Assembly (NCBI RefSeq): GCF_001570605.1
Contig: NZ_BBXG01000002.1
Span: 1 to 32,219, forward strand
From: Herbidospora cretacea
GTDB taxonomy: Bacteria > Actinomycetota > Actinomycetes > Streptosporangiales > Streptosporangiaceae
Reading direction: 5' to 3'
DNA length: 32,219 nucleotides
This document shows, piece after piece, positions 2,842 to 13,674 of the stretch. The notes beneath the pieces are model-generated. The model was given only the letters and a program-made list of their open reading frames with translations. It did no database searches and was not told where the DNA came from. Each line of letters starts with the position of its first letter. Position 1 is the stretch's first letter. The translations under genes were made by a program, and so were the position numbers.

Positions 2842-2988
2842 GTGGCTCTCAACGACATCGAGCGGCAGATCTTGTTGCAGGAACTCGCGGAGATCTCGGC
2901 GGACCTGTCCGACCTCCAACGGCGCACTGTGGCGATCACTGCTCGGGTTGATCGGTCCGAGTCCGGGCGTCCAGCTCGTCCAGCCTGA
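2842..2988 (+). CDS. 48-aa putative helical protein downstream of the XRE regulator
   Basis: GTG at 2842 is preceded by GGGGTGAT (2833-2840) and opens a 48-codon frame to TGA at 2986-2988. The product (core DIERQILLQELAEISADL, then SDLQRRTVAITARV) is a credible amphipathic helix with heptad-like spacing. It lies 20 bases after the XRE gene, so it may be co-transcribed. Its last 53 bases overlap the 3' end of the convergent GntR gene at 2936-3322, which is unusual. It is short and unrecognised, so it may not be real; the ribosome site and coiled-coil-like content favour it. Confidence 0.45.
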   Translation: MALNDIERQILLQELAEISADLSDLQRRTVAITARVDRSESGRPARPA

Positions 2989-3322
2989 GACTCAGTTTGT
3001 GCATGTGTTCGCGGATCTCGCGGAGTTGCTCGGAGATGATCGCGAACTCCTCGCTCTGCTGCGCGGCGGGGGCCTGCCGCGCGCCGGTCGCCTCGGGACG
3101 CTCGATCACGAAGCTTCCCGTGCCCTGGCGCGTCTCGATCAGTCCTTCATCGCGCAGCACAGCCAGGGCGTTGCCGATGGTCATCATGGCAACGCCGTAC
3201 TGTTCCGCCAGCTCACGCGCCACGGGGAGTTGCTCCCCTACGGTGTATCGCCCGTGCGCGATCTCACTGCGGATGCTGTCGGCGATCCGCAGATAGGGCC
3301 GCCGTCGATCCGTACCTGCCAT
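2936..3322 (-). CDS. GntR-family regulator, KorSA-like
   Basis: 128 residues. Residues 8-75 form a GntR winged HTH (YLRIADSIRSEIAHGRYTVG, then LPVARELAEQYGVAMMTIGN and IETRQGTGSFV). The C-terminus lacks a UTRA or FCD domain and is instead a short coiled coil (about residues 88-120, EFAIISEQLREIREHMHKLS), probably for dimerisation. In pSAM2 the GntR protein KorSA represses pra and so replication and transfer; position and size fit that role here. Start is the ATG at 3322. A CTAG-N4-CTAGGT box begins 19 bases upstream and a second stands before the divergent gene at 3466, so it probably represses itself and the transfer operon. Confidence 0.85.
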   Translation of the reverse strand: MAGTDRRRPYLRIADSIRSEIAHGRYTVGEQLPVARELAEQYGVAMMTIGNALAVLRDEGLIETRQGTGSFVIERPEATGARQAPAAQQSEEFAIISEQLREIREHMHKLSLRLDELDARTRTDQPEQ

Positions 3323-3465: not shown

Positions 3466-3810
3466 GTGCGCAACATCCCCATCCCCGTCGACACGAGCAG
3501 GCTCGCCATCACCTGTGTGAAGGCCCCGCAACCGCGCATCCGCGACCGACAGACAGGAGAGATCAAGGTCGACAAGAACGGCCAGACGGTCTACGAGATC
3601 ACGACCTCGACCGAAGACGCCTTCGGCAGGATCGAGCTGGTCAAAATCGCCGTCGCCGGCGAACCGCCCGTCGGCGTCGGTCAGCGAATCTTCCCCGTCA
3701 ACCTGGTCGGCTACGTCTGGGAGATCGCCGGACGTTGGGGCATCTCCTACCGCGCCGATTCGATCATCTCGGCGGAGACCGCACAGGTGGGGGCGAAGTC
3801 CCGTGACTGA
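3466..3810 (+). CDS. SCO3933-family regulatory protein of AICEs
   Basis: 114 residues starting at GTG 3466, with AAGGAG (3454-3459) in good position. The opening NIPIPVDTSRLAITCVKAP, the central DRQTGEIKVDKNGQTVYEI and the later GVGQRIFPVNLVGYVWE then GISYRADSI match, from memory, the small protein that precedes the translocase gene in Streptomyces AICEs and is annotated SCO3933 family. The molecular role is not established; it is regarded as regulatory because of its place at the head of the transfer operon. Its stop overlaps the next start by 8 bases, so the two are coupled. Confidence 0.75.
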   Translation: MRNIPIPVDTSRLAITCVKAPQPRIRDRQTGEIKVDKNGQTVYEITTSTEDAFGRIELVKIAVAGEPPVGVGQRIFPVNLVGYVWEIAGRWGISYRADSIISAETAQVGAKSRD

Positions 3811-5134
3811 CCACCTGGACTGGCTCGCACTGGTGGCCGCTTCGGTGTCCTGGCTGGTGGCCTGGCGGCTCTTTCACCCGCGTTCGTTCTGGTACGCCCT
3901 GGGCTACCCCCTGACCGCCCTCCGCGTCCGTGCGACGTGGCGCAAAGTCGCCCTTGGTTGCGGGCTGACCAAGAAGCGTCAGCGCTTCTGGTTCACCACC
4001 GTCCCCGGGCTGATCGCCTCGACCGGCGTCGTACAGGTCAAGCGACGCTGGCAACGCATCTCCGTCGACACCAAGCCGTGGATGTGGCTACCACTGCCCA
4101 CCCGGCACGGCTGGCGCGTCACCCTGCACCTGCTCGAAGGCCAGATACCCGCCGACTACTCCGAGGCGGCCGAACGCCTGGCGCACTCCTGGGGGGCGCA
4201 CGCCGTCCGCGTCTCTTCCGACAAGCCCGGCCGCCTGCGCCTGCACGTCACCATGCGCGACCCGTTGGTCAAGCTCAACAACCTCCCGGCGTCTCCGGAC
4301 CTCCTGAAGATCACGGTAGGCGCCCTGGAGACGGGCCGTCCCTGGGTGATCGACTTTCGGACTGTCCCGCACTGGCTCAACGCGGGCGCCACCCAATCCG
4401 GCAAGTCCAACCTGGCCAACGCTCTCATCGTCGGACTGGCCCCCCAGCCCGTCGCCTTGGTCGGCTTCGACCTCAAAGGCGGAGTGGAGTTCACCCCGTA
4501 CAAATCCCGCTTATCCGCCCTGGCCACCAGTCGCCCCGAGTGCACCGGCCTCCTGGATGACCTGCTCGGCATCATGACCGACCGGATGGACCTGTGCCGC
4601 ATGGCCGGCGCCCGCAACATCTGGCAACTCCCGCCCTACATGCGACCGACCCCCATCGTCGTCCTGGTCGACGAGCTCGCCGAGCTCTACCTGATGGCCG
4701 ACAAGAGCGAGAAAGACGACATCGCCAAGACCTCCACCGCGCTCCTGCGCGTGGCCCAGCTCGGCCGTGCCTTCGGCATCTACCTGTTCTGCTGCGGCCA
4801 GCGCATCGGCTCCGACCTCGGACCCGGCGTCACAGCACTCCGCGCTCAGTGCTCGGGCCGCGTCTGTCACCGCGTCAACGACCCCGAGACCGCGACCATG
4901 ACCCTCGGCGACCTCGACCCGGCCGCCCTGGACTCCGCCCGCGCCATCCCGGCCGAAACCCCCGGCGTCGCCATCGTCGCCAGCCAGGACGGCCAGTGGT
5001 ACCGCGCCCGCTCCCACTACGTCAGCGAAGCCACGGCCGAACACTCCGCCCAGACCTTCGCCCACCTGACTCCCGCGTGGGAGGACCTCATCAACCCCAA
5101 CCCGGTCGCCGACCCGGCGCCCAAAGGAGCCTGA
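3803..5134 (+). CDS. FtsK/SpoIIIE-type conjugative DNA translocase (TraB/TraSA-like)
   Basis: 443 residues. A hydrophobic stretch at about residues 7-24 (WLALVAASVSWLVAWRLF) is a probable membrane anchor. The P-loop GATQSGKS is at 195-202 and the Walker B PIVVLVDELAEL has its acidic pair at D290-E291; QLGRAFGIYLFCCGQR downstream is the typical FtsK sensor region. TraB-type proteins form a hexameric pore at the hyphal tip and move double-stranded element DNA to the recipient without a relaxase. GTG 3803 is used because of the 8-base overlap with the SCO3933-type gene. It is longer than TraSA of pSAM2 and has no large N-terminal domain. No spread (Spd) genes were found beside it. Confidence 0.9.
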   Translation: MTDHLDWLALVAASVSWLVAWRLFHPRSFWYALGYPLTALRVRATWRKVALGCGLTKKRQRFWFTTVPGLIASTGVVQVKRRWQRISVDTKPWMWLPLPTRHGWRVTLHLLEGQIPADYSEAAERLAHSWGAHAVRVSSDKPGRLRLHVTMRDPLVKLNNLPASPDLLKITVGALETGRPWVIDFRTVPHWLNAGATQSGKSNLANALIVGLAPQPVALVGFDLKGGVEFTPYKSRLSALATSRPECTGLLDDLLGIMTDRMDLCRMAGARNIWQLPPYMRPTPIVVLVDELAELYLMADKSEKDDIAKTSTALLRVAQLGRAFGIYLFCCGQRIGSDLGPGVTALRAQCSGRVCHRVNDPETATMTLGDLDPAALDSARAIPAETPGVAIVASQDGQWYRARSHYVSEATAEHSAQTFAHLTPAWEDLINPNPVADPAPKGA

Positions 5135-5396: not shown

Positions 5397-6758
5397 TTGC
5401 CCCACCCCATCGCTTCGCACGCGGTCGCCGGGATCATCGCCCGGCTCGACGACCCTCGATACGCCCGCTGGGCCGCGCAGATCAGGCGCACCGGCGGATG
5501 CCGTCAGCCCATCCACCTCCGGGGCTCCGTCGACCACATCGACGCCGGCACCGGCGAACTCCTCCACCGCTACAGCACCCGCAGCGAACCCGGCGGCGTC
5601 CTGCGCGTGGCGTGCAAGACTCGCCGCGCCTCCCGCTGTCCGGCCTGCGCCGAGACCTACCGCGCCGACACGTACCAACTGATTCGCGCGGGCCTGGTCG
5701 GCGGCAAGGGCGTTCCGAACTCGGTCAGCGCGCATCCGTCCCTGTTCGTAACCCTGACCGCGCCGTCCTTCGGGGCCGTGCACGTGCGCCGAGAGGCCAA
5801 CGGACGAGTCCACCCGTGCCGCGCTCGCCGGAAGGCTGCACCCTGTCCGCACGACCGGCTTCTGTCCTGCACCGTCCGCCATGCTCCCGACGATCACCGC
5901 CTGGGCGAACCGCTGTGCCCCTCGTGTTACGACTACACCGGGTCGGTCCTGTTCAACGCCACCGCCCCTGAGCTGTGGCGACGCTTCACCGAAGCCCTTC
6001 GCCGGCGACTCGCCAAAACGGGCGGCCTGCCCCTGCGTGAACTTCGTGAGCACCTCATGCTCTCCTTCGCCAAGGTCGCCGAGTACCAGAAACGCGGCGT
6101 GGTCCACGTGCACGCCGTCATCCGCCTCGACGGTCCGACCGGTCCCGACTCGCCGCCTCCCGACTGGGCAACCGCCGGCACCCTGGCCGACGCGATCCGG
6201 CACGCCTCGAACGCCGTCACGGTCACCGTTCCCATCCCCGGCCAGCCTGGCCGAATCCTCACCTGGGGCGATCCGAGCAAGGGTCTGGACATCCGCCCCA
6301 TCGCCACATCCGACGACCTGACAGAACGGGCCGTCGCCGCGTACATCGCCAAGTACGCCACCAAGGCCGCCGAATGCGTCGGCACGCTCGACCGCCGAGT
6401 CGGTGCACTCGACGACCTGGCCGCCCTGCCCATCCGCGACCACGCCCGGGAGCTCATCGCCGAGTGCCTGCGATTGGGCGCCCTGGATGAACTCGCCGAC
6501 CTCAACCTGATCCGCTGGGCGCACATGCTCGGATTCCGCGGCCACTTCTCCACCAAATCCCGCCGCTACTCCGTCACCATGGGCGCCCTCCGAGCAGCCC
6601 GCGAGGAACACCAACGCGGCGAAGAGATCGGTACGGGTCGCATCCCGCTGTTCGACGAAGACACCGCCCTGGTCATCGCTCGCTGGGAGTACGCCGGAAA
6701 GGGCCTGTCCCTCGGCGAAGCGGTCTTGGCCCGCGCGATCGTCGGGGGTGCCGTATGA
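5397..6758 (+). CDS. RepSA-type rolling-circle replication initiator
   Basis: 453 residues. The HUH metal-binding motif is VVHVHAVIR with H237 and H239, and the catalytic-tyrosine helix is AAYIAKYATKA with Y316 and Y320, either of which may attack the origin. N-terminal cysteine pairs (RCPAC near 82, LCPSC near 182) and the YQKRGVVHVH approach are typical of the actinomycete RepSA family. The protein nicks the element's origin to start rolling-circle replication of the excised circle. The TTG start at 5397 has AAGGA (5382-5386) upstream. The 98-base gap after the preceding small gene was scanned and shows no strong hairpin. Its stop overlaps the excisionase ATG (ATGA). Confidence 0.9.
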   Translation: MPHPIASHAVAGIIARLDDPRYARWAAQIRRTGGCRQPIHLRGSVDHIDAGTGELLHRYSTRSEPGGVLRVACKTRRASRCPACAETYRADTYQLIRAGLVGGKGVPNSVSAHPSLFVTLTAPSFGAVHVRREANGRVHPCRARRKAAPCPHDRLLSCTVRHAPDDHRLGEPLCPSCYDYTGSVLFNATAPELWRRFTEALRRRLAKTGGLPLRELREHLMLSFAKVAEYQKRGVVHVHAVIRLDGPTGPDSPPPDWATAGTLADAIRHASNAVTVTVPIPGQPGRILTWGDPSKGLDIRPIATSDDLTERAVAAYIAKYATKAAECVGTLDRRVGALDDLAALPIRDHARELIAECLRLGALDELADLNLIRWAHMLGFRGHFSTKSRRYSVTMGALRAAREEHQRGEEIGTGRIPLFDEDTALVIARWEYAGKGLSLGEAVLARAIVGGAV

Positions 6759-6946
6759 GGCGGAACGACGAACTCCTGACCGTGCGGCAGATCCTCGACG
6801 AGCTCGGCGGCGTCTCCCGCCGCACCTTCTACCGGTGGCGCGAACTCGGACATGCGCCGCGCGGCCTGAAGCTGCCCAATGGCGAGATCCGCGTGTACCG
6901 CAGCGAACTCGCCGCCTGGCTGGACACCCTGCGGGAGGTGTCGTGA
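6755..6946 (+). CDS. xis: Excisionase (MerR/HTH_17-type)
   Basis: 63 residues: LLTVRQILDELGGVSRRTFY followed by RWRELGHAPRG, a wing (LPNGEIRVYRSE) and LAAWLDTLRE. This is the single winged helix of Xis/HTH_17 proteins, which bend the attachment DNA and direct the integrase to excision. It overlaps rep by four bases upstream and int by four bases downstream (GTGA), the invariable rep-xis-int order of pSAM2-like elements, so stoichiometry is likely fixed by translational coupling. Confidence 0.9.
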   Translation: MRRNDELLTVRQILDELGGVSRRTFYRWRELGHAPRGLKLPNGEIRVYRSELAAWLDTLREVS

Positions 6947-8313
6947 ACCCCTCGTACGACGTCAAGCTGTGGGAGATCAAGCGCAACCAGTCGAGCAAGA
7001 CGCCGTCCTACGTCGTGAGGTGGGCGGTCGGCCGCAAAGAGAGGTCACGGACCTTCCGGACGAAGGCCCTGGCCGACAGCTTCCTGTCCGATCTCCGTCA
7101 GGCGGCCAAGCGTGGCGAGGCGTTCGACGTCGACACCGGGTTGCCCGTGTCCATGGTCCAGGCCAAGAAGGCGACGAGCTTCTACGTCTTCGCGCTGGGA
7201 TACGTGGACATGAAGTGGCCTCACGCGGCGGCCAAGACTCGCGACAGCATGACCGACGCCCTGAGCACGGTCATCCCGGCTCTCGTCAATGAGGACGCGA
7301 CCGGCAAGCCCGAACCGTCCGTGATGCGTCGGGCGCTCCGGCAGTATGCGCTCTCGCCGGCAACCCGCGACATGCCCCAACCGCAAGAGATCAAGGAAGC
7401 GCTCACCTGGCTTGAGAAGAACTCCCTGCCAGTCGAGGACCTGGCCAAGCCACGCCTTGTCCGCCTGGGCTTGGACGCCCTGACCGTCCGCCTCGACGGC
7501 ACCGCCGCCGCGCCCACTACGATCGCCCGAAAGCGTTCGGTCTTCTACAACACCCTTCAGTACGCCGTCGATCTGGAAGAGCTTCCGTCCAATCCGATCG
7601 ACAAGGTCAAGGCGTGGAAGCCCCCGAAAGTCCGTGAGGTCGTCGACCGCCGAGTCGTAGTGAACGCGGGCCAAGCTCGCGATCTGCTGAACGCGGTCAC
7701 ATACGTCGGCCTCGTCAAGCGTGGGCGCCACCTGAAGGGGTTCTTTGCCTGCCTTTACTACGCGGGCCTACGCCCGGCCGAAGCCCTCGCGCTTCGTGTG
7801 GGTGACTGCCGCCTGCCCGAATCCGGTTGGGGCCTTCTCCTCGTCGCCAAGTCCAAGCCCCAGTCCAACAAGCGCTGGACCGACAGCGGCGAAGGCCACG
7901 ACGATCGAGGACTCAAGCACCGTGCAGCCGACGAGGGCCGGCCGGTGCCCATCCCTCCTCAACTCGTCACCATCCTCCGGGACCACATCGAAGAGTTCGG
8001 CGTCCACGACGACGGTCGCCTGTTCCGGACGTCGCGCGGCGGGATCATCTCGATCGGCACGTACTGCGAGACCTGGCGGGCCGCTCGCGCCCTGGCCCTC
8101 ACGCCCGAACAGGTCGTTTCCCCCATGGCCGCCCGACCCTACGATCTCCGGCACGCCGCCGTCAGTCTGTGGCTCAACGCCGGAGTAGCTCCACCTGATG
8201 TCGCCGACCGCGCCGGGCATAGCGTCGACGTCCTCTTGAAGGTCTACGCCAAGTGCATCGACGGCGGCGCCGAAGTAGCCAATCGTCGTATCGGCTCAGC
8301 TCTGGACGAGTGA
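6943..8313 (+). CDS. int: Site-specific tyrosine integrase
   Basis: 456 residues from GTG 6943. The N-terminal region (about 15-75) resembles AP2-like arm-site binding domains, residues about 150-230 the core-binding domain, and the catalytic domain follows with R277 (YYAGLRPAEAL), the R403-H404 pair (YDLRHAAVS), H426 (RAGHS) and nucleophile Y435 (VYAK). A tyrosine stands where many recombinases have the first histidine of box II, which is common in AICE integrases. It should recombine the element's attP with a tRNA 3' end. The final 11 codons are repeated 2.7 kb downstream (11039-11071). A GC-rich hairpin terminator follows. Confidence 0.93.
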   Translation: MNPSYDVKLWEIKRNQSSKTPSYVVRWAVGRKERSRTFRTKALADSFLSDLRQAAKRGEAFDVDTGLPVSMVQAKKATSFYVFALGYVDMKWPHAAAKTRDSMTDALSTVIPALVNEDATGKPEPSVMRRALRQYALSPATRDMPQPQEIKEALTWLEKNSLPVEDLAKPRLVRLGLDALTVRLDGTAAAPTTIARKRSVFYNTLQYAVDLEELPSNPIDKVKAWKPPKVREVVDRRVVVNAGQARDLLNAVTYVGLVKRGRHLKGFFACLYYAGLRPAEALALRVGDCRLPESGWGLLLVAKSKPQSNKRWTDSGEGHDDRGLKHRAADEGRPVPIPPQLVTILRDHIEEFGVHDDGRLFRTSRGGIISIGTYCETWRAARALALTPEQVVSPMAARPYDLRHAAVSLWLNAGVAPPDVADRAGHSVDVLLKVYAKCIDGGAEVANRRIGSALDE

Positions 8314-8385
8314 TCAGTACGCCAACAAGGCCCCGTTGACCCAGTCTGGTCGCGGGGCCTTCGTCATATCCGGCTCTTCAACAAA
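8242..8385 (+). repeat. Direct repeat copy A: end of int plus terminator
   Basis: The end of int and about 70 bases after it recur at 11011-11147. The best block is 8278-8319 against 11036-11077, 41 of 42 bases identical, the one difference being a silent GGC/GGT change in the glycine codon. Similarity continues through the terminator to the CCTTCGTCAT...TCCGGCTC stretch with scattered changes. This copy is intact. Confidence 0.85.
8327..8361 (+). terminator. Terminator-like hairpin after int
   Basis: AAGGCCCCG (8327-8335) pairs with CGGGGCCTT (8353-8361); inside, GACC (8338-8341) can pair with GGTC (8348-8351). No clear T-run follows, as is common in actinomycetes. The second copy, near 11090-11120, has lost pairing (GGCCCCG facing CGCGTGCC), consistent with decay. 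Confidence 0.7.
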
Positions 8386-8747
8386 GCCCAATCGTGTCAA
8401 CTCCTGATTGACGCAGTTCCGGCGGATCTGAAATTGGCCTAAGTCCGGCCCACACGGCGATTCCGTGATGTACGGTACGTGAAATCGTGCCCTTGGCGGG
8501 GGCGATGCACCATCCCGGAGATCGCTTCGGGGGCTTCCAAAGGAAGCCATCTAGTACGCGCATGGCCGGTGACCTGAACCGCGCCGCACGCTGTGACCAG
8601 GTGTTGGGCATTTCGGATCCGTCAAGCGACGCAGCGCGGACCTTCGTGATCCCCGCGTCCCCGGATGGCGAATGGCGGGCCATCTACAGGGGCAGGGCCC
8701 CGGCGACTGCCGGATGGCGCTCAGGATCACAGAGAGAGCAGACGGAC
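8362..8747 (+). other. Leader region of the cargo gene, no gene seen
   Basis: This 386-base stretch holds the end of repeat copy A and the upstream region of the large gene at 8748. A perfect 7-bp hairpin, GGCTTCC-AAA-GGAAGCC, lies at 8532-8548, and a short one, GGGGC-AGG-GCCCC, near 8691-8703. A weak promoter candidate is TTGACG (8408-8413) 17 bases before AAATTG (8431-8436). The frame of the next gene is open back to 8487, but that part has an unprotein-like composition. No tRNA fragment or att copy was seen. Confidence 0.4.
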
Positions 8748-10946
8748 ATGTCTGTTGATCCCCAATTCCAGGCACCTCACCTCGGCGTGGACCACCACCC
8801 CGACCAGCCGAATACTCACTCCAACGAGCGGTGGGACCCCATCACGCTGAAGGTCGGCGATGACACGCTGACTGTCAGCAACTTCAGCCACCAGCTCCCC
8901 ACTCCGTCAGAAGTCCGTGATCGCACCAGGCTGGTGCGTGTCGGCCAGAGCAATCCCTATTGCGCGCTGCCGGAGGATGGCTGGCACGCACTAGCGCGGG
9001 CGATAGTGCATCCGCCCGCGCTCACGGCGCAACTTGTGTACCAGTCGGGCGCTGGGGGCTCATCGCTTATCGAAGAGCATGTCGGCGGAGCGACATTGCG
9101 CTCGGGTAACGGCCGTGTCTGGCTGACCGAGATCTTCCCATTGGTACAGCCGCGCGTCGGACAAGATCCCCACGCCGAGTCGGACCCCGAGATTGAGGGC
9201 GAGTTGACCGGCGATGTCGCACAGGCGATGCTGGTGTACCGGTTTCGCGACCAAAGTCACCTACGTAATTATTTACGCCAGACGATCATCGCAACCCGGA
9301 ACTCCAACAAGCAGTACGACGAGTCCATCCTCAGCCGCCGCATCACCCGTGCGGTCGTCGCGCACATAGCCCGCATCGAATTCTCCGACGGGTCCGAACC
9401 CCTCTACGTCTTAGTCGTCCGCGACGGGATCACACGCGTCGTCAGCGCTTGGGGTGCGTTGTGCGGAGACCAGGCAACTCCCGAAGAGATCGCCGATCGG
9501 GCCATCGAAGTCGTGCTTGCTGAGAAACCCGCGCGCCGTGGCGTAGACAAGCCCCTGACCCAGCGCATGGCGCTCGGCCGGCAAGGTGAACTCGACAAGT
9601 TGCGCGCCTCTTTCATCGCCGGACTGAGCGGCACCACCCCCGCCGAGGAAGCGATCAGGATAGGGCAGGCGATTGTCGTACCAGCACAGATCGCCGTCGG
9701 ACTTCAGGTACACCCCGGTTCTGGGCTTCCCCCTGGCGAAGTCTTCGATGACGCCATCCGCAGCATCCTGTCGTCGATCCACGTTGAGTTCGGCATGTGG
9801 GATTCGGCCGCGCAGAACGCCGAGATCGGCTCCCGTGCGCTTAAGCGGACCATGCTCGATGGCGTCAACGACATCACCGGCATCGAGATTGCCGACGTTT
9901 ACCGGTTGGCTATCGGTCAGTACCACCCTCAGCAAACGCCCGACGTCTTCGGCGACCGCAGCATCCCCGGCACGCCTCTTTGGCGCGCAGTATTCCTAGT
10001 CCACTACCTGACCCGCCCGTCTGTATTCGGGGTCATGAAAAAGCATGTGAAGGCGATCACGGGTAAACAACGGCTGCGTACCAACACCTATGCAGAGATT
10101 CTCGGCCCCATCACCGACCGGCCGTGGCGTCTGGCCAAAAAGCAGACCTTGCGGCAGGCCCGCAACGCATGGGGTAACGGTGGCGTACTGACCAAGGAGG
10201 TCGCCGAATCGGACTGGCAGCCGACGCCCTGCGCTGACTTCACTTCGCTGGTCAAACCGGCTACCTCCGGGAACCTCGATGCCAGGCTCACTTTGGCTGT
10301 CGCCGGTGGTATCGCATTGATCACTGACAAGCTGCTGACCCGCAACGTCGGCTCGGCAGTCGGTCGCACGGTCCCATTCCGTTCCGATGTCGACGACGTC
10401 ATCGCCATGCTATCCAGGGTAGAAAATCCCGCTGGCCTGCTCCTACTTGCCCACGCCGCCAACCGGTTCGATGCCGATCGGGTGGCGGTGAACTCCTTCA
10501 CCGACAAGCAGTTGATCAAAGAGGGCGGCGAGGACGACCGCTACACCATGGTCGCTGTCGATCTTGAAGCCAACGACGGCATCGCCCGCGATGGAGCCGG
10601 AGTACCCCGCCGCCTCGACGAATACACCGTTGTCAAGGTGTCCGACCCCCAACGCGCGGCCCAGGAAGAGGGAGAGCTTGTCGACGACGATGACGCTGAA
10701 CTGAAGCCGGTCCTCGATCAGATGGCTACCCAGCGACGCAAACTCCTCGGCACCCTCACCGATGCACAGGAGGCCCTCACCCAGCTCATTCGGCTGAGCC
10801 AGACACCAGATGCCGCAGGGGCCCATCCGCTCGGATCCCCGCGCGAATGGGCCAAGGTCTCCAAGCTTGCCGTCAAGGTTCAGTCGACGATCTACTCCAA
10901 CGATCCCAACCTCGACTCTAACGACGAAGACGACGAAGACATGTAG
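8748..10946 (+). CDS. 732-aa protein of unknown function, putative element cargo
   Basis: I do not recognise the family. The ATG at 8748 is chosen because protein-like sequence begins there; the ribosome site is weak. The N-terminal third has features faintly like ParB/DGQHR proteins: QSNPYCALPEDGWHALARAI (N69-P70-Y71, then L82-A-R-A-I86) and, after an insertion, LYVLVVRDGITRVVSAW with D226-G-I-T-R230 where ParB has GxRR and DndB-like proteins have DGQHR. The rest is mixed helical (LRASFIAGLSG; FLVHYLTRPSVFGVMKKHVK). The C-terminus, SNDPNLDSNDEDDEDM, is strongly acidic. There is no signal peptide or membrane segment. Base composition is locally lower in GC than int (for example 9240-9300). 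It has its own terminator and stands alone between integrase-tail repeats, so a single-gene defence or fitness function is plausible but unproven. Confidence 0.8.
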   Translation: MSVDPQFQAPHLGVDHHPDQPNTHSNERWDPITLKVGDDTLTVSNFSHQLPTPSEVRDRTRLVRVGQSNPYCALPEDGWHALARAIVHPPALTAQLVYQSGAGGSSLIEEHVGGATLRSGNGRVWLTEIFPLVQPRVGQDPHAESDPEIEGELTGDVAQAMLVYRFRDQSHLRNYLRQTIIATRNSNKQYDESILSRRITRAVVAHIARIEFSDGSEPLYVLVVRDGITRVVSAWGALCGDQATPEEIADRAIEVVLAEKPARRGVDKPLTQRMALGRQGELDKLRASFIAGLSGTTPAEEAIRIGQAIVVPAQIAVGLQVHPGSGLPPGEVFDDAIRSILSSIHVEFGMWDSAAQNAEIGSRALKRTMLDGVNDITGIEIADVYRLAIGQYHPQQTPDVFGDRSIPGTPLWRAVFLVHYLTRPSVFGVMKKHVKAITGKQRLRTNTYAEILGPITDRPWRLAKKQTLRQARNAWGNGGVLTKEVAESDWQPTPCADFTSLVKPATSGNLDARLTLAVAGGIALITDKLLTRNVGSAVGRTVPFRSDVDDVIAMLSRVENPAGLLLLAHAANRFDADRVAVNSFTDKQLIKEGGEDDRYTMVAVDLEANDGIARDGAGVPRRLDEYTVVKVSDPQRAAQEEGELVDDDDAELKPVLDQMATQRRKLLGTLTDAQEALTQLIRLSQTPDAAGAHPLGSPREWAKVSKLAVKVQSTIYSNDPNLDSNDEDDEDM

Positions 10947-10969
10947 CCCGGAGTTGGGAAGTAGAGCAC

Positions 10970-11003
10970 GTAGGGCCCACGGAGAATTGTCGGTGGGCCC
11001 TAC
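10970..11003 (+). terminator. Strong 11-bp hairpin terminator after the cargo gene
   Basis: GTAGGGCCCAC (10970-10980) and GTGGGCCCTAC (10993-11003) pair perfectly around a 12-base loop, 24 bases after the stop codon. Only a short T-poor tail follows. It closes the cargo gene as its own transcription unit, and the similarity to the integrase tail begins just after it, at about 11011. Confidence 0.75.
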
Positions 11004-11010
11004 TACTCCT

Positions 11011-11071
11011 GTTGGCTACGCCAAACCCGAAGATCGCCAATCGTCGTATCGGTTCAGCTCTGGACGAGTGA
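11011..11071 (+). pseudogene. Decayed 3' end of a second integrase gene
   Basis: GCCAATCGT...GAGTGA at 11036-11071 encodes ANRRIGSALDE-stop, identical to the last residues of the integrase at 8313. Upstream, GGCTACGCCAAA at 11014-11025 matches the catalytic GTCTACGCCAAG (Y435) of int, but about 14 bases between the two parts are missing, shifting the frame. Upstream of 11011 the similarity stops at the cargo terminator. It is a remnant only. Confidence 0.8.
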
Positions 11072-11147
11072 TCAGTAACACCCAACCAGGCCCCGTTGAC
11101 CCCCTCGGTCGCGTGCCCTTCGTCATGTCCGGCTCGTCCAACACCTT
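11011..11147 (+). repeat. Direct repeat copy B: degraded integrase tail and terminator
   Basis: Counterpart of 8242-8385. After the stop the similarity runs on through AGTGATCAGTA, a CCAGGCCCCGTTGACCC stretch and CCCTTCGTCATGTCCGGC, with several changes and small indels; the hairpin stem is broken. The two copies bracket 8386-11010. Confidence 0.8.
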
Positions 11148-11407
11148 GCTCCGATGGACCTGGGCGAAGCCCTGGGCCGCCGATCGCCCCCAGCCTGAGC
11201 GGGACATCAGCCACCGCAAGGCGATCGTAGGGAGATGCGTCTACGGACCTAATGACCTGGGGAAACACCACCAAGATCATCCCGTGAATATCCCGTGATC
11301 AACGACATGAAGCCGCCCACGACAGCTCACGGCTGCACACCCGAGAAATGATCACCAGGCCACCCGCCACCCATCAGGCCAGGTCGGACCACGTTTTCCA
11401 AGCAAAG
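11072..11407. other. Gene-free stretch between integrase remnant and tRNA-Ser, probable attachment region
   Basis: No credible gene is seen. An exact 9-base direct repeat, ATCCCGTGA, occurs at 11279-11287 and 11290-11298 (11-base period), and CAGGCCA-containing repeats occur around 11356-11385. Short direct repeats near an attachment core are typical of integrase arm-binding sites, so this may be the arm region of the original att site. That reading is inference. Confidence 0.35.
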
Positions 11408-11496
11408 CGGAGAGCGTGGGATTCGAACCCACGAGGAACGTCACCGCCCCTAGCGGTTTTCAAGACCGCCGCCATCGTCCACTAGGCGAGCTCTCC
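11408..11496 (-). tRNA. tRNA-Ser(TGA)
   Basis: On the minus strand the acceptor arms are GGAGAGC (5') and GCTCTCC (3'), 7 bp. The anticodon stem-loop is GCGGT-CTTGAAA-ACCGC with anticodon TGA, a long variable arm follows (class II, as expected for serine), the T arm is CGTGGGTTCGAATCCCACG, and the discriminator is G. CCA is not encoded. Its 3' end faces the mobile element, the usual AICE insertion position. Confidence 0.95.
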
Positions 11497-11574
11497 AGAC
11501 CCCCCACAACAGCGGGCGTCAGAACGCAACCCTACTCTCTCCCGCCCCCACCAGAGGACGGGAGAGACACGCCA

Positions 11575-13674
11575 TCAGATGTGATCCGGGATCTCGGAGT
11601 ACCGCCGCTCCCCAACCCCAGGAGCCCCCGCGAACCCGTCCCCCACAGAAGCGGCCAACTTGAGGAAAGCCGCCCGAGTAGGCTCCTGCAGTCGCTCCAG
11701 ATCGATCTCCGCCCCTTCCTCGAGGTGCGGGTCGTAAGGCACCCGGACCACAGCCCGGCACCGTGCGGCGAAGTGCGCCTCGAGGCGCTTCAAATCCACC
11801 GTCGACTTCGACCGGGGCCGCACGCTGCACAGCACCACGGTCGCCGACTTGACCAGGTCGCCGTAGTGGTGAGCCTCCAGCCAGTCCAGTGTCGCCGACG
11901 CCGCGCGGGCTCCGTCCACGGACGGACTGCTCACCAGGACGAGCTGGTCGGCGAGCCCCAGGACGCCCGACATCGCCGAGTGCAGCAGGCCCGTCCCGCA
12001 GTCCGTGATGCAGATCGAGTAGAAGTTCTCCAGCACCGCGGAGACCGACTGGTAGTCCTCGGCCGAGAACGCCTCGGACACCGAGGGGTCCCGGTCTGAT
12101 CCCAGGATCTCCAGCCGCGAGGGCGTCTGTGAGGTGAAGGCGCGGATGTCGACGTACCGCCGGATGTCCGCGCGCTCGTTCAGCAGGTCACGGATGGTCG
12201 CCGAGGTCTCCAGCTCCACCTTGTCGGAGAGCGTTCCACGGTCGGGGTTGGCGTCCACCGCGATCACGCGGTCGCCGCGGACCTGCGCGAGCGTCGCGCC
12301 GAGGCCCACGGTGGTGGTGGTCTTGCCGACGCCGCCCTTGAGGCTCAGCACGGCCACGCGGTGGTGGCCGGCCGACACGGGGGTGCGTGCGCGGGCCACC
12401 AGCTCGGCGCGTTTGCGCACCTCGGGGGCCTCGCCGGGCTTTATCAAACCGGCCGTGGCCTTGAAGACGACGCGTCGCCAACCCGTGGCGGGGCCGTCCT
12501 TGCGGCCCTTGAGCAGGGTGGCGGGGTCGAGGCTGTCGGCCGAGGGCTTCGTCGAGCGGGGGACCAGCGCCCGCGACGTGCTCTGGAAGGCCGGTGCGGG
12601 CAGGTTGTCGGGCTGCCGCCGCCTCGCCTGGTAGGGCTCGCGCTCGGCGATCTCGCGCGACTCCGAGAGGGGCTGAACCTCTCTCGTGTACGACTCCAGC
12701 GCCTCCCGTGCCGAGGACCGGAAGGCCTCTCCGGGCCCTGCGGCTGCTTCGGCGGGGGGCTTGAGGTTCTCCCGAAGCGAGCCTCTTAACGGCTCGTCGG
12801 CGTCCCGGATGGGGCGGAACCGGTTGCCGGGATCGGTGTCCTCGGCGGCCGGGGTCTCCTCGGCCTCGGTGCCGGGCCACGAGAACCGCCCGGAGTCCGC
12901 GTCCGAGCGGCCGAAGGCGCCCTTGTCCGAGGGCCCGGGGTCAGCGGGCAGGCCGAAGTGTCCCGAGTCGGTGTCGCTCTCGGGACGCGGGAGCCCGAAG
13001 GGGCCCGAGTCGCTCTCGGAGGGCCGGGAGACCCGGTCGGTGTCGGTCCGCGAGAAGCCGAAGGCACCCGGGTCGTCGTCGGATCGCGGGAACGTGAAGC
13101 CGCCGGAGTCGCCCTCGGAGCGCGCGAACCCGGTCCCGAAGTCGGCGTCCGGACGCCCCAGGTCGGCCACCACCTCCGGCGAGAAGCGCCCTGTCTCGGC
13201 GTCGGGGCGCGGGAAGCGGCCGGAGTCGGACGGCTCGTCGTGCACGGGGACGGCCGGTTCCAGCCATCCGCGCACGGGCTCGTCGGGGCTCTCGGCCTCG
13301 GCGGGGGTCCGCTCGCCGAACGCCCCCACGTTGTAGGAGTCGGTGTCGATCGGCGAGTCGCCGAAGGCCCCGCGGCCGGTCCCGAACGGCAGCGGGTCGA
13401 GTGTCTCCACGCCGCTGTCGGAGGCGGGCGGCTCTTCCACCGCTGAAACGGCCCGGAAGGGCGCCGGCTCGGCCGGGACCGAGCGCCAGGGGTCCTTCGG
13501 GTAGGGCGAGGGCACCTCGTCCGTCGTCGGCGGCGCAGGCTGTGGAGCAGCAAGCGACGACGCCGTCACCGCGGACACCGCGATGTCGACCTCGTCGGGC
13601 ATCTCCTTGATCGCGTCGAGCCAGGCCAGCTGGTCTTCGAGCGAGTGGGGATCCTCACGATCGTGTCGTGCCAC
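11575..13674 (-). CDS. MinD/ParA-like ATPase with long disordered N-terminus
   Basis: 699 residues from a GTG at 13674, chosen because GAGGGGG stands 8 bases upstream; the frame is open 27 codons further but without a signal. The last ~260 residues are a deviant-Walker ATPase: AVLSLKGGVGKTTTTVGLG with K451, AVDANPDRGTLSDK, and ITDCGTGLLHSAM as Walker B region. The first ~420 residues are Pro/Asp/Ser/Gly-rich and hold about ten copies of a D-x-G-x-F unit (DSGRF, ETGRF, DSGGF, DPGAF, DSGPF, DSGHF, DSGRF and others). The layout recalls MinD-like ATPases of actinomycete type VII secretion loci such as EspI, but no secretion genes are near. Likely role: positioning or assembly of an envelope complex; inference. 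Confidence 0.85.
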   Translation of the reverse strand: MARHDREDPHSLEDQLAWLDAIKEMPDEVDIAVSAVTASSLAAPQPAPPTTDEVPSPYPKDPWRSVPAEPAPFRAVSAVEEPPASDSGVETLDPLPFGTGRGAFGDSPIDTDSYNVGAFGERTPAEAESPDEPVRGWLEPAVPVHDEPSDSGRFPRPDAETGRFSPEVVADLGRPDADFGTGFARSEGDSGGFTFPRSDDDPGAFGFSRTDTDRVSRPSESDSGPFGLPRPESDTDSGHFGLPADPGPSDKGAFGRSDADSGRFSWPGTEAEETPAAEDTDPGNRFRPIRDADEPLRGSLRENLKPPAEAAAGPGEAFRSSAREALESYTREVQPLSESREIAEREPYQARRRQPDNLPAPAFQSTSRALVPRSTKPSADSLDPATLLKGRKDGPATGWRRVVFKATAGLIKPGEAPEVRKRAELVARARTPVSAGHHRVAVLSLKGGVGKTTTTVGLGATLAQVRGDRVIAVDANPDRGTLSDKVELETSATIRDLLNERADIRRYVDIRAFTSQTPSRLEILGSDRDPSVSEAFSAEDYQSVSAVLENFYSICITDCGTGLLHSAMSGVLGLADQLVLVSSPSVDGARAASATLDWLEAHHYGDLVKSATVVLCSVRPRSKSTVDLKRLEAHFAARCRAVVRVPYDPHLEEGAEIDLERLQEPTRAAFLKLAASVGDGFAGAPGVGERRYSEIPDHI

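Follow-up and report, generated by a model that had tools for sequence, protein, structure and literature searches.

A solitary cargo gene of an actinomycete integrative element in Herbidospora cretacea, a possible weapon or switch in mobile-element conflict

The cargo gene P0001 (8748..10946, + strand) encodes a 732-aa protein of an unnamed family and resides on an integrative element in the 32,219-nucleotide stretch of Herbidospora cretacea DNA analysed here (the window), which is the first 32 kb of contig C2. Since its relatives are often neighbours of a probable DNA- or RNA-cutting enzyme, it may be a weapon or a switch in mobile-element conflict. Our preferred reading, to which we give a probability of about 0.42, is that P0001 is the sensor or switch protein of an uncharacterised actinobacterial anti-mobile-element module, present here in a partnerless form. 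Counted for this reading are the pairing of relatives with partner genes, the invariant motif residues, the many flank groups in which relatives occur, their enrichment near tRNA genes, purifying selection, a type II methyltransferase near the Streptomyces cellulosae relative and a kinase cargo in the same slot of a related element. Counted against it are the lack of any matching Pfam or PADLOC model, the 27 of 55 loci that are partnerless, the small number of partners seen by Pfam and the lack of phage or viral relatives.

P0001 is a genuine gene under purifying selection. Its dN/dS of 0.11 over 729 codons relative to H. galbida excludes a chance ORF, and the corresponding value relative to S. 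cellulosae is 0.16 over 730 codons. The S. cellulosae relative supports the assigned start, as the earliest start available to its ORF falls at the corresponding residue. Diversifying selection, a sign of an arms race, was not found, the highest 65-codon block reaching a dN/dS of 0.27. A composition-based gene caller overlooked P0001, so the silence of this caller elsewhere is no proof of absence. Searches of Pfam, NCBIfam, PHROGs, PADLOC and PDB sequences named no family and returned matches at chance level only; XPC-binding, DUF1133, pilin and butyrate kinase matches of full-length P0001 and its relatives were rejected on this ground. Profile searches of the PDB with the family gave nothing convincing, no PADLOC model matched P0001, no HTH was matched within it, and no relatives were found in phage records or viral contigs. 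The sequence-only reading, which had described a 732-residue protein without recognised family at this position, was therefore borne out by the ORF and by these searches, and the clear match to a housekeeping family that it had named as counter-evidence did not occur. It had further suggested that the acidic C-terminal end (10896..10943, + strand) could mimic DNA or recruit a partner. A mimic special to P0001 is not supported, since such a tail is common in the family: acidic residues exceed basic ones by at least 5 in the last 20 residues of 31 of 47 members, counted without the split or frame-broken members L026, L142, L143 and L144, versus 10 of 312 control ORFs.

The host element of P0001 is an actinomycete integrative element (AICE), with a RepSA-type replication initiator, an FtsK-like TraB protein, an integrase and a tRNA attachment site. 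It encodes an HTH regulator (1604-2821), a GntR-type protein (2936-3223), an FtsK/SpoIIIE-type (TraB-like) transfer protein (3803..5134, + strand, PF01580), a RepSA replication initiator (5397..6758, + strand, PF20199, E 1.5e-160), a small excisionase-like HTH protein (6755..6946, + strand, PF12728) with a putative Xis role, and the tyrosine integrase of the element (6943..8313, + strand), whose PF00589 match (E 2.6e-5, 24.5 bits) is below the cut-off of 27.1. A tRNA scan and a repeat match place a tRNA-Ser(tga) at 11407..11496 (- strand), with the attachment site at its 3' part. Support for this attachment region comes from a second occurrence, at 99% identity, of 80 nt of the 3' part of the tRNA close to an end of contig C9 (C9:2063-2142); two further copies (93% and 90%) are found deeper in this contig. 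The element beside the C9:2063-2142 copy is related to that of the window (approximately 76% identity over traB, rep and integrase). A tandem array in which contigs C9 and C2 are neighbours would be the simplest layout, although we infer the join.

The slot between integrase and attachment site is occupied differently in related elements. In the sister element (C9:2063-6651, L038) it is filled by a kinase of 582 residues and a pair of FHA-like ORFs, names that were first assigned by eye, and another element of the genus (G083), the third, has a 463-residue ORF there. Since kinase and FHA-like ORFs, a 463-residue ORF or P0001 are found there, this cargo slot is variable. The kinase matches the PADLOC models mad6 and PD-T4-6, as other kinases may likewise do; together with the FHA-like ORFs it represents a candidate phosphorylation-based defence cargo. 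Four further genomes of the genus (G109, G130, G149, G163) show no similarity to the element in the approximately 12 kb taken beside tRNA-Ser.

The immediate surroundings of P0001 agree in part with the sequence-only reading, in which the gene stood alone between integrase and attachment region, with its own leader, a strong terminator and a lower local GC content. The location stands, between the integrase and tRNA-Ser, but the solitude looks derived, as discussed below. The leader consists of a 434-nt spacer, and a scan of 6500-11600 covering the sigma-70 type only found no such promoter. A stable hairpin does follow the stop codon (10970..11003, + strand; -39.4 kcal/mol for an 81-nt stretch, z -4.4, 0 of 200 shuffles as low); it is terminator-like without a T tract and does not appear in the list of the terminator scan. 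In an Rfam search of 6500-11600, the tRNA alone scored above its cut-off. P0001 has a GC content of 0.62-0.64, which is indeed lower than that of the adjoining chromosome, but values just as low (0.61-0.67) are found across the initial 4.5 kb of the window.

P0001 is flanked by a direct repeat that the sequence-only reading had not noted, made up of the integrase 3' end and the sequence following it, with 98% identity over 42 nt and less beyond. Repeat search and folding place the left copy, which comprises the integrase 3' end and the hairpin after it, at 8278..8379 (+ strand), and the right copy, an integrase 3' end remnant whose hairpin is not stable (z 0.07), at 11036..11138 (+ strand). 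Between the window and H. galbida, identity is 87% for the left copies and 88% for the right copies, while a left and a right copy share 62-69% when compared over the same columns, which reach past the repeat core. The two copies are possible homologous-recombination sites for the exchange of cargo or backbone.

The cargo and the backbone differ in history. Relative to H. galbida (L002), dS is 0.047 for the HTH gene, 0.045 for traB, 0.042 for repSA and 0.124 for the integrase gene, and reaches 0.543 for P0001, more than ten times the value of the first three genes (0.042-0.047); five chromosomal neighbour genes range from 0.117 to 0.453. In steps of 200 bases, identity is 96-100% across the backbone (1.2-7.6 kb) and drops to 74-94% from approximately 8.2 kb, at the integrase end, through P0001 into the chromosome. 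Consequently, P0001 is no recent co-traveller of the backbone, and recent joint travel with the element body is rejected. P0001 has likely been at the tRNA end since before the split of the window species and H. galbida, the body having been exchanged near the integrase 3' end, either through recombination or because an element entered anew. Alternatively, two separate acquisitions of diverged cargo alleles may have taken place.

Relatives of P0001 are patchily distributed. They were detected by profile in at least 44 of 392 Streptomyces genomes, and in at least 6 of 297 genomes of the family, at least 7 of 394 of the class and at least 3 of 396 of the phylum (the last by profile), each of these three counts including the own genome; because scoring was confined to the two or three top candidates of each genome, all genome counts are lower bounds. 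Three plasmids carry relatives. Of 55 loci examined, 52 hold a family ORF by profile, the exceptions being L037, L159 and L163; L037 is a divergent member recovered by search from a genome outside the class of the window. Grouped by shared neighbouring genes, the 52 loci form 42 flank groups, 36 of them single, which rejects one fixed locus for the relatives; the fixed chromosomal position that the sequence-only reading had cited as a sign against mobile cargo is thus not what was found. Its view of P0001 as cargo of a mobile element is supported, with relatives at many unrelated sites and more often near tRNA genes: nine of the 52 are less than 2 kb from a tRNA gene, one is at 2-4 kb and none at 4-6 kb, the window and H. 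galbida representing one shared tRNA site. At L020, a perfect 45-nt tRNA-Pro repeat bounds approximately 5 kb that contain a relative, a DUF3800 ORF and an integrase fragment recognised by eye.

Several relatives have a particular organisation or neighbourhood. In three related loci (L026, L143, L144) the family protein is encoded in two ORFs overlapping by 4 nt near residue 320, a split that suggests two domains. In S. paradoxus the family gene is broken into pieces. In S. cellulosae (L001 7531-9605), a type II cytosine methyltransferase (E 4e-137) and an unrecognised 277-residue ORF are encoded just upstream of the relative; by eye this ORF contains an ExK-like motif and is possibly a new restriction enzyme. 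Six loci (L153, L154, L155, L160-L162) carry divergent members without a recognised nuclease, several of them beside WhiB-type genes.

Named neighbours of the relatives are mostly ordinary chromosomal genes (among the first 25 of 127 and of 118 families). This observation would agree with a role outside conflict, for example in host DNA repair or nucleotide metabolism, with spread by tRNA-targeted islands; GIY-YIG nucleases, of the type found beside many relatives, also work in repair. Such a role is improbable given the patchy occurrence of the family and its 42 flank groups. The same neighbourhoods bear on the idea that P0001 regulates its own element, as a ParB/KorB/DndB-like, NTP-controlled DNA binder repressing transfer or replication, or stabilising the element, the nucleases being accessory. 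A link to mobile elements has been described for orphan ParB-fold proteins, some of which regulate transcription (PMC12704722), and a regulatory role would also fit the divergent clade that adjoins WhiB-type genes and lacks a nuclease (WhiB matches number 5 among 115 neighbour proteins). However, no Rep or tra family appears in the top 25 of the families encoded near the relatives (of 127 and 118), which means that for many of them there may be no element to control; the cargo took no part in the backbone exchange, and P0001 shows no HTH match. We thus regard a regulator of the own element as unlikely.

The sequence-only reading stressed that P0001 has no partner genes. While this is true in the window, at least 28 of the 55 family loci have a nuclease-type neighbour, and neither type of partner was found with our profiles at the remaining 27. 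The sequence-only reading had looked to homologues recurring next to integrases or in defence islands; integrases identified by Pfam are few in the scanned flanks (3 of 114 and 2 of 115 proteins). Our local integrase profile, with 7 ORFs in all, is too narrow for judging integrases near relatives, and a genome search with PF00589 returned too many places to be of use.

A GIY-YIG-like ORF is located directly downstream of the family gene at 17 of 55 loci, including L037, the most divergent member. The two genes overlap by 1-11 nt in 15 of the 17 and are 8 and 27 nt apart in L158 and L145, some starts being those of the in-house gene caller. A local GIY-YIG profile, run on 5967 ORFs, retrieved these 17 and no others (weakest E 1.2e-25). 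Inspected by eye, the alignment of the 17 displays the motifs Y..YxG, R and the late E, with Y-T-G, Y-C-G or Y-A-G in some and a variable Asn. PF01541 scored 18.8 and 16.8 bits on partners, below the cut-off of 22.6, and did not match that of L017, and a pooled Pfam scan recognised GIY-YIG in 4 of 16 partners at E up to 0.01 (best 0.002). A DUF3800-like ORF occurs at 12 of 55 loci and is directly upstream on the same strand in 11, all of one clade. PF12686 scored above cut-off for the three ORFs tested singly (L019, L020, L024), and the other 8 were assigned by local profile; a pooled Pfam set with 7 of the 11 yielded at most 3 matches, some ORFs having been shortened by the in-house gene caller. 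At L127 the DUF3800 match is split across two ORFs, one of which is the long family ORF. Published modelling gives DUF3800 an RNase H fold (PMC10910872). Among the relatives and partners tested, PADLOC gave weak matches only (one partner at E 9e-4, one relative at E 0.06). At three loci (L025 8084-8968, L125 5854-6627, L126 5632-6312), another upstream ORF replaces DUF3800 and is, by eye, perhaps a diverged DUF3800; that of L025 has no Pfam match. At L022 (6687-7595), an upstream ORF with an INGQHR motif appears by eye to encode a second DGQHR-like protein near a family member.

Partner states follow the tree of the family, with 9 changes versus 23.5 in shuffles (0 of 200 as low). The GIY-YIG state is found in several branches, and the DUF3800 state is confined to one 19-row clade, within which the window gene groups with those of H. 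galbida and S. cellulosae, all three having neither a GIY-YIG-like nor a DUF3800-like partner. This is a quick tree of 51 rows, including L037 and without L003 and L141, in which several branches are long and deep forks are weak. The solitude of P0001 looks like a derived state. One might see P0001 as a decaying remnant of a system that lost its nuclease, a partly functional or selfish leftover in a tRNA-proximal scar. Besides the missing partner in these three species, the S. paradoxus copy in pieces and the integrase 3' end remnant adjoining P0001 point in this direction, and AICE cargo is often pseudogenised (PMC9513070). P0001 is nevertheless a full-length ORF whose dN/dS values relative to both H. 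galbida and S. cellulosae indicate that selection acted over the time since divergence, and we consider a decaying remnant quite improbable.

ParB proteins share the pattern NPxQPR, followed by box I and a box II of the form GxxR. In the P0001 family, R136 of a QPR/NPR motif (9153..9155, + strand) is conserved in 50 of 50 members, and the motif ESIL (residues 192-195; 9321..9332, + strand) resembles ParB box I in the alignment, as judged by eye. The DGxxR motif, DGITR in P0001 (residues 226-230; 9423..9437, + strand), has G227 and R230 in 51 of 51 rows and D226 in 45 of 51, and would correspond to box II, whose G-x-x-R pattern is present; P312 is also invariant (51 of 51 rows). The motif order PR ... 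SI ... DGxxR recalls ParB and the DGQHR/DGQQR motifs of DndB and GmrS. Boxes I and II of ParB are named in PMC12704722; the published motif of GmrS is DGQQR, and the QR pair occurs in DndB and GmrS too (PMC4619093). ParB-fold proteins, often encoded on mobile elements, bind CTP, ATP or GTP, and long bacterial members with unassigned parts were reported by Kaljevic et al. (PMC12704722). With R136, G227 and R230 invariant, the family may possess an NTP-binding module of the ParB/sulfiredoxin type, like those of DndB and GmrS.

Profile and structure comparisons were also sought for this module, the sequence-only reading having looked to a nuclease, NTPase or CTPase fold. An NTPase-type fold is suggested by the motifs, but no profile matches. 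The Pfam ParB, DGQHR and DUF262 models have no match in 13 full-length members or 41 domains, PF02195, the family counted in a figure legend of Kaljevic et al. (PMC12704722), has no match in the P0001 family, and TIGR03187 and the other NCBIfam models do not match P0001, the own genome having no match at E 0.001. The N-domain profile compared with DGQHR scores 20.5-20.8 with the DGxxR motifs in register, at an hhalign probability no higher than 3.2%; the maxima were 13.4 in 60 column shuffles and 16.0 in 100, and the reversed profile scored 14.2. These scores do not discriminate, since an integrase profile reaches 19.5 against DGQHR and the N-domain scores 21.1-27.6 against Spo0J-type ParB in a plainly wrong place, the ParB C-terminal end. 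The comparison is weak in both directions, as ParB versus DGQHR, accepted kin, scores 17.7. The AlphaFold2 model of P0001 is unusable (pLDDT 31); its order of helices and strands fits a ParB type but carries no weight.

An NTP-gated switch controlling a nuclease is the best reading, based on the motif likeness and on NTP binding by ParB-fold proteins. According to this reading, residues ~107-262 would form the ParB/sulfiredoxin-type NTP-binding module, which may recognise or load onto foreign or transferring DNA and whose NTP state would release or direct the partner nuclease. The C-terminal part (~330-720) and the acidic tail might hold the partner or DNA, and the partner nucleases would be interchangeable, either GIY-YIG-like or DUF3800-like. 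P0001 of the window, with no partner beside it, probably acts alone, perhaps as a weak nuclease or NTPase in its own right, or by preventing rival elements from transferring or becoming established at tRNA-Ser, as Osa does against rival plasmids. The broader proposal of a new actinobacterial conflict system, in which an NTP switch with a diverged ParB/Srx module licenses interchangeable nucleases, is split in some members and also exists as a solitary tRNA-slot cargo, is possible but doubtful.

Members of this unnamed family are present in approximately one of every nine sampled Streptomyces species. If our preferred reading is true, one switch protein pairs with different nucleases in an unrecognised conflict module, the ParB-fold repertoire is extended, with natural pairs and a lone form for testing whether the switch acts by itself, and one class of unnamed AICE cargo is explained. 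Literature on ParB-fold, GIY-YIG and DUF3800 proteins in defence or Streptomyces contains nothing recognised as the P0001 family among the matches listed, and the main text of a survey of the antiviral arsenal of Actinobacteria (PMC10482375) mentions neither ParB, DUF3800 nor GIY-YIG. In our best reading, an NTP switch coupled to a nuclease is already known as a type, and the sequence, partners and layout are what is new here.

The setting of P0001 resembles that of Streptomyces AICEs, for which variable cargo and successive elements at one tRNA site have been described (PMC9513070); the accessible part of that paper does not name the P0001 family, and its main text contains neither "ParB" nor "defense". 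GmrSD, a type IV restriction system of DUF262 and HNH, is alike in that a DGxxR protein, for which a ParB/Srx fold has been proposed, is joined by a nuclease, either as a partner or in a fusion (PMC4619093). Unlike GmrSD, the P0001 family has no DUF262 match, its partners are GIY-YIG-like or DUF3800-like instead of HNH, and the window gene has none. DndB/DGQHR (TIGR03187, PF14072) shares the DGxxR motif in register, in a weak profile comparison, and a DndB-like protein binds ATP and GTP (PMC12704722), whereas P0001 has no NCBIfam or Pfam match and none of the ten window proteins scanned gave a dnd-type match. Osa, which mediates IncW fertility inhibition and is assigned to the ParB/Srx type in citing papers (e.g., PMC4619093), is likened to P0001 by description, as a single gene on a conjugative plasmid. 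Osa targets the coupling protein of its rival (PMC5696584), and the rivals of an AICE use an FtsK-like transfer protein.
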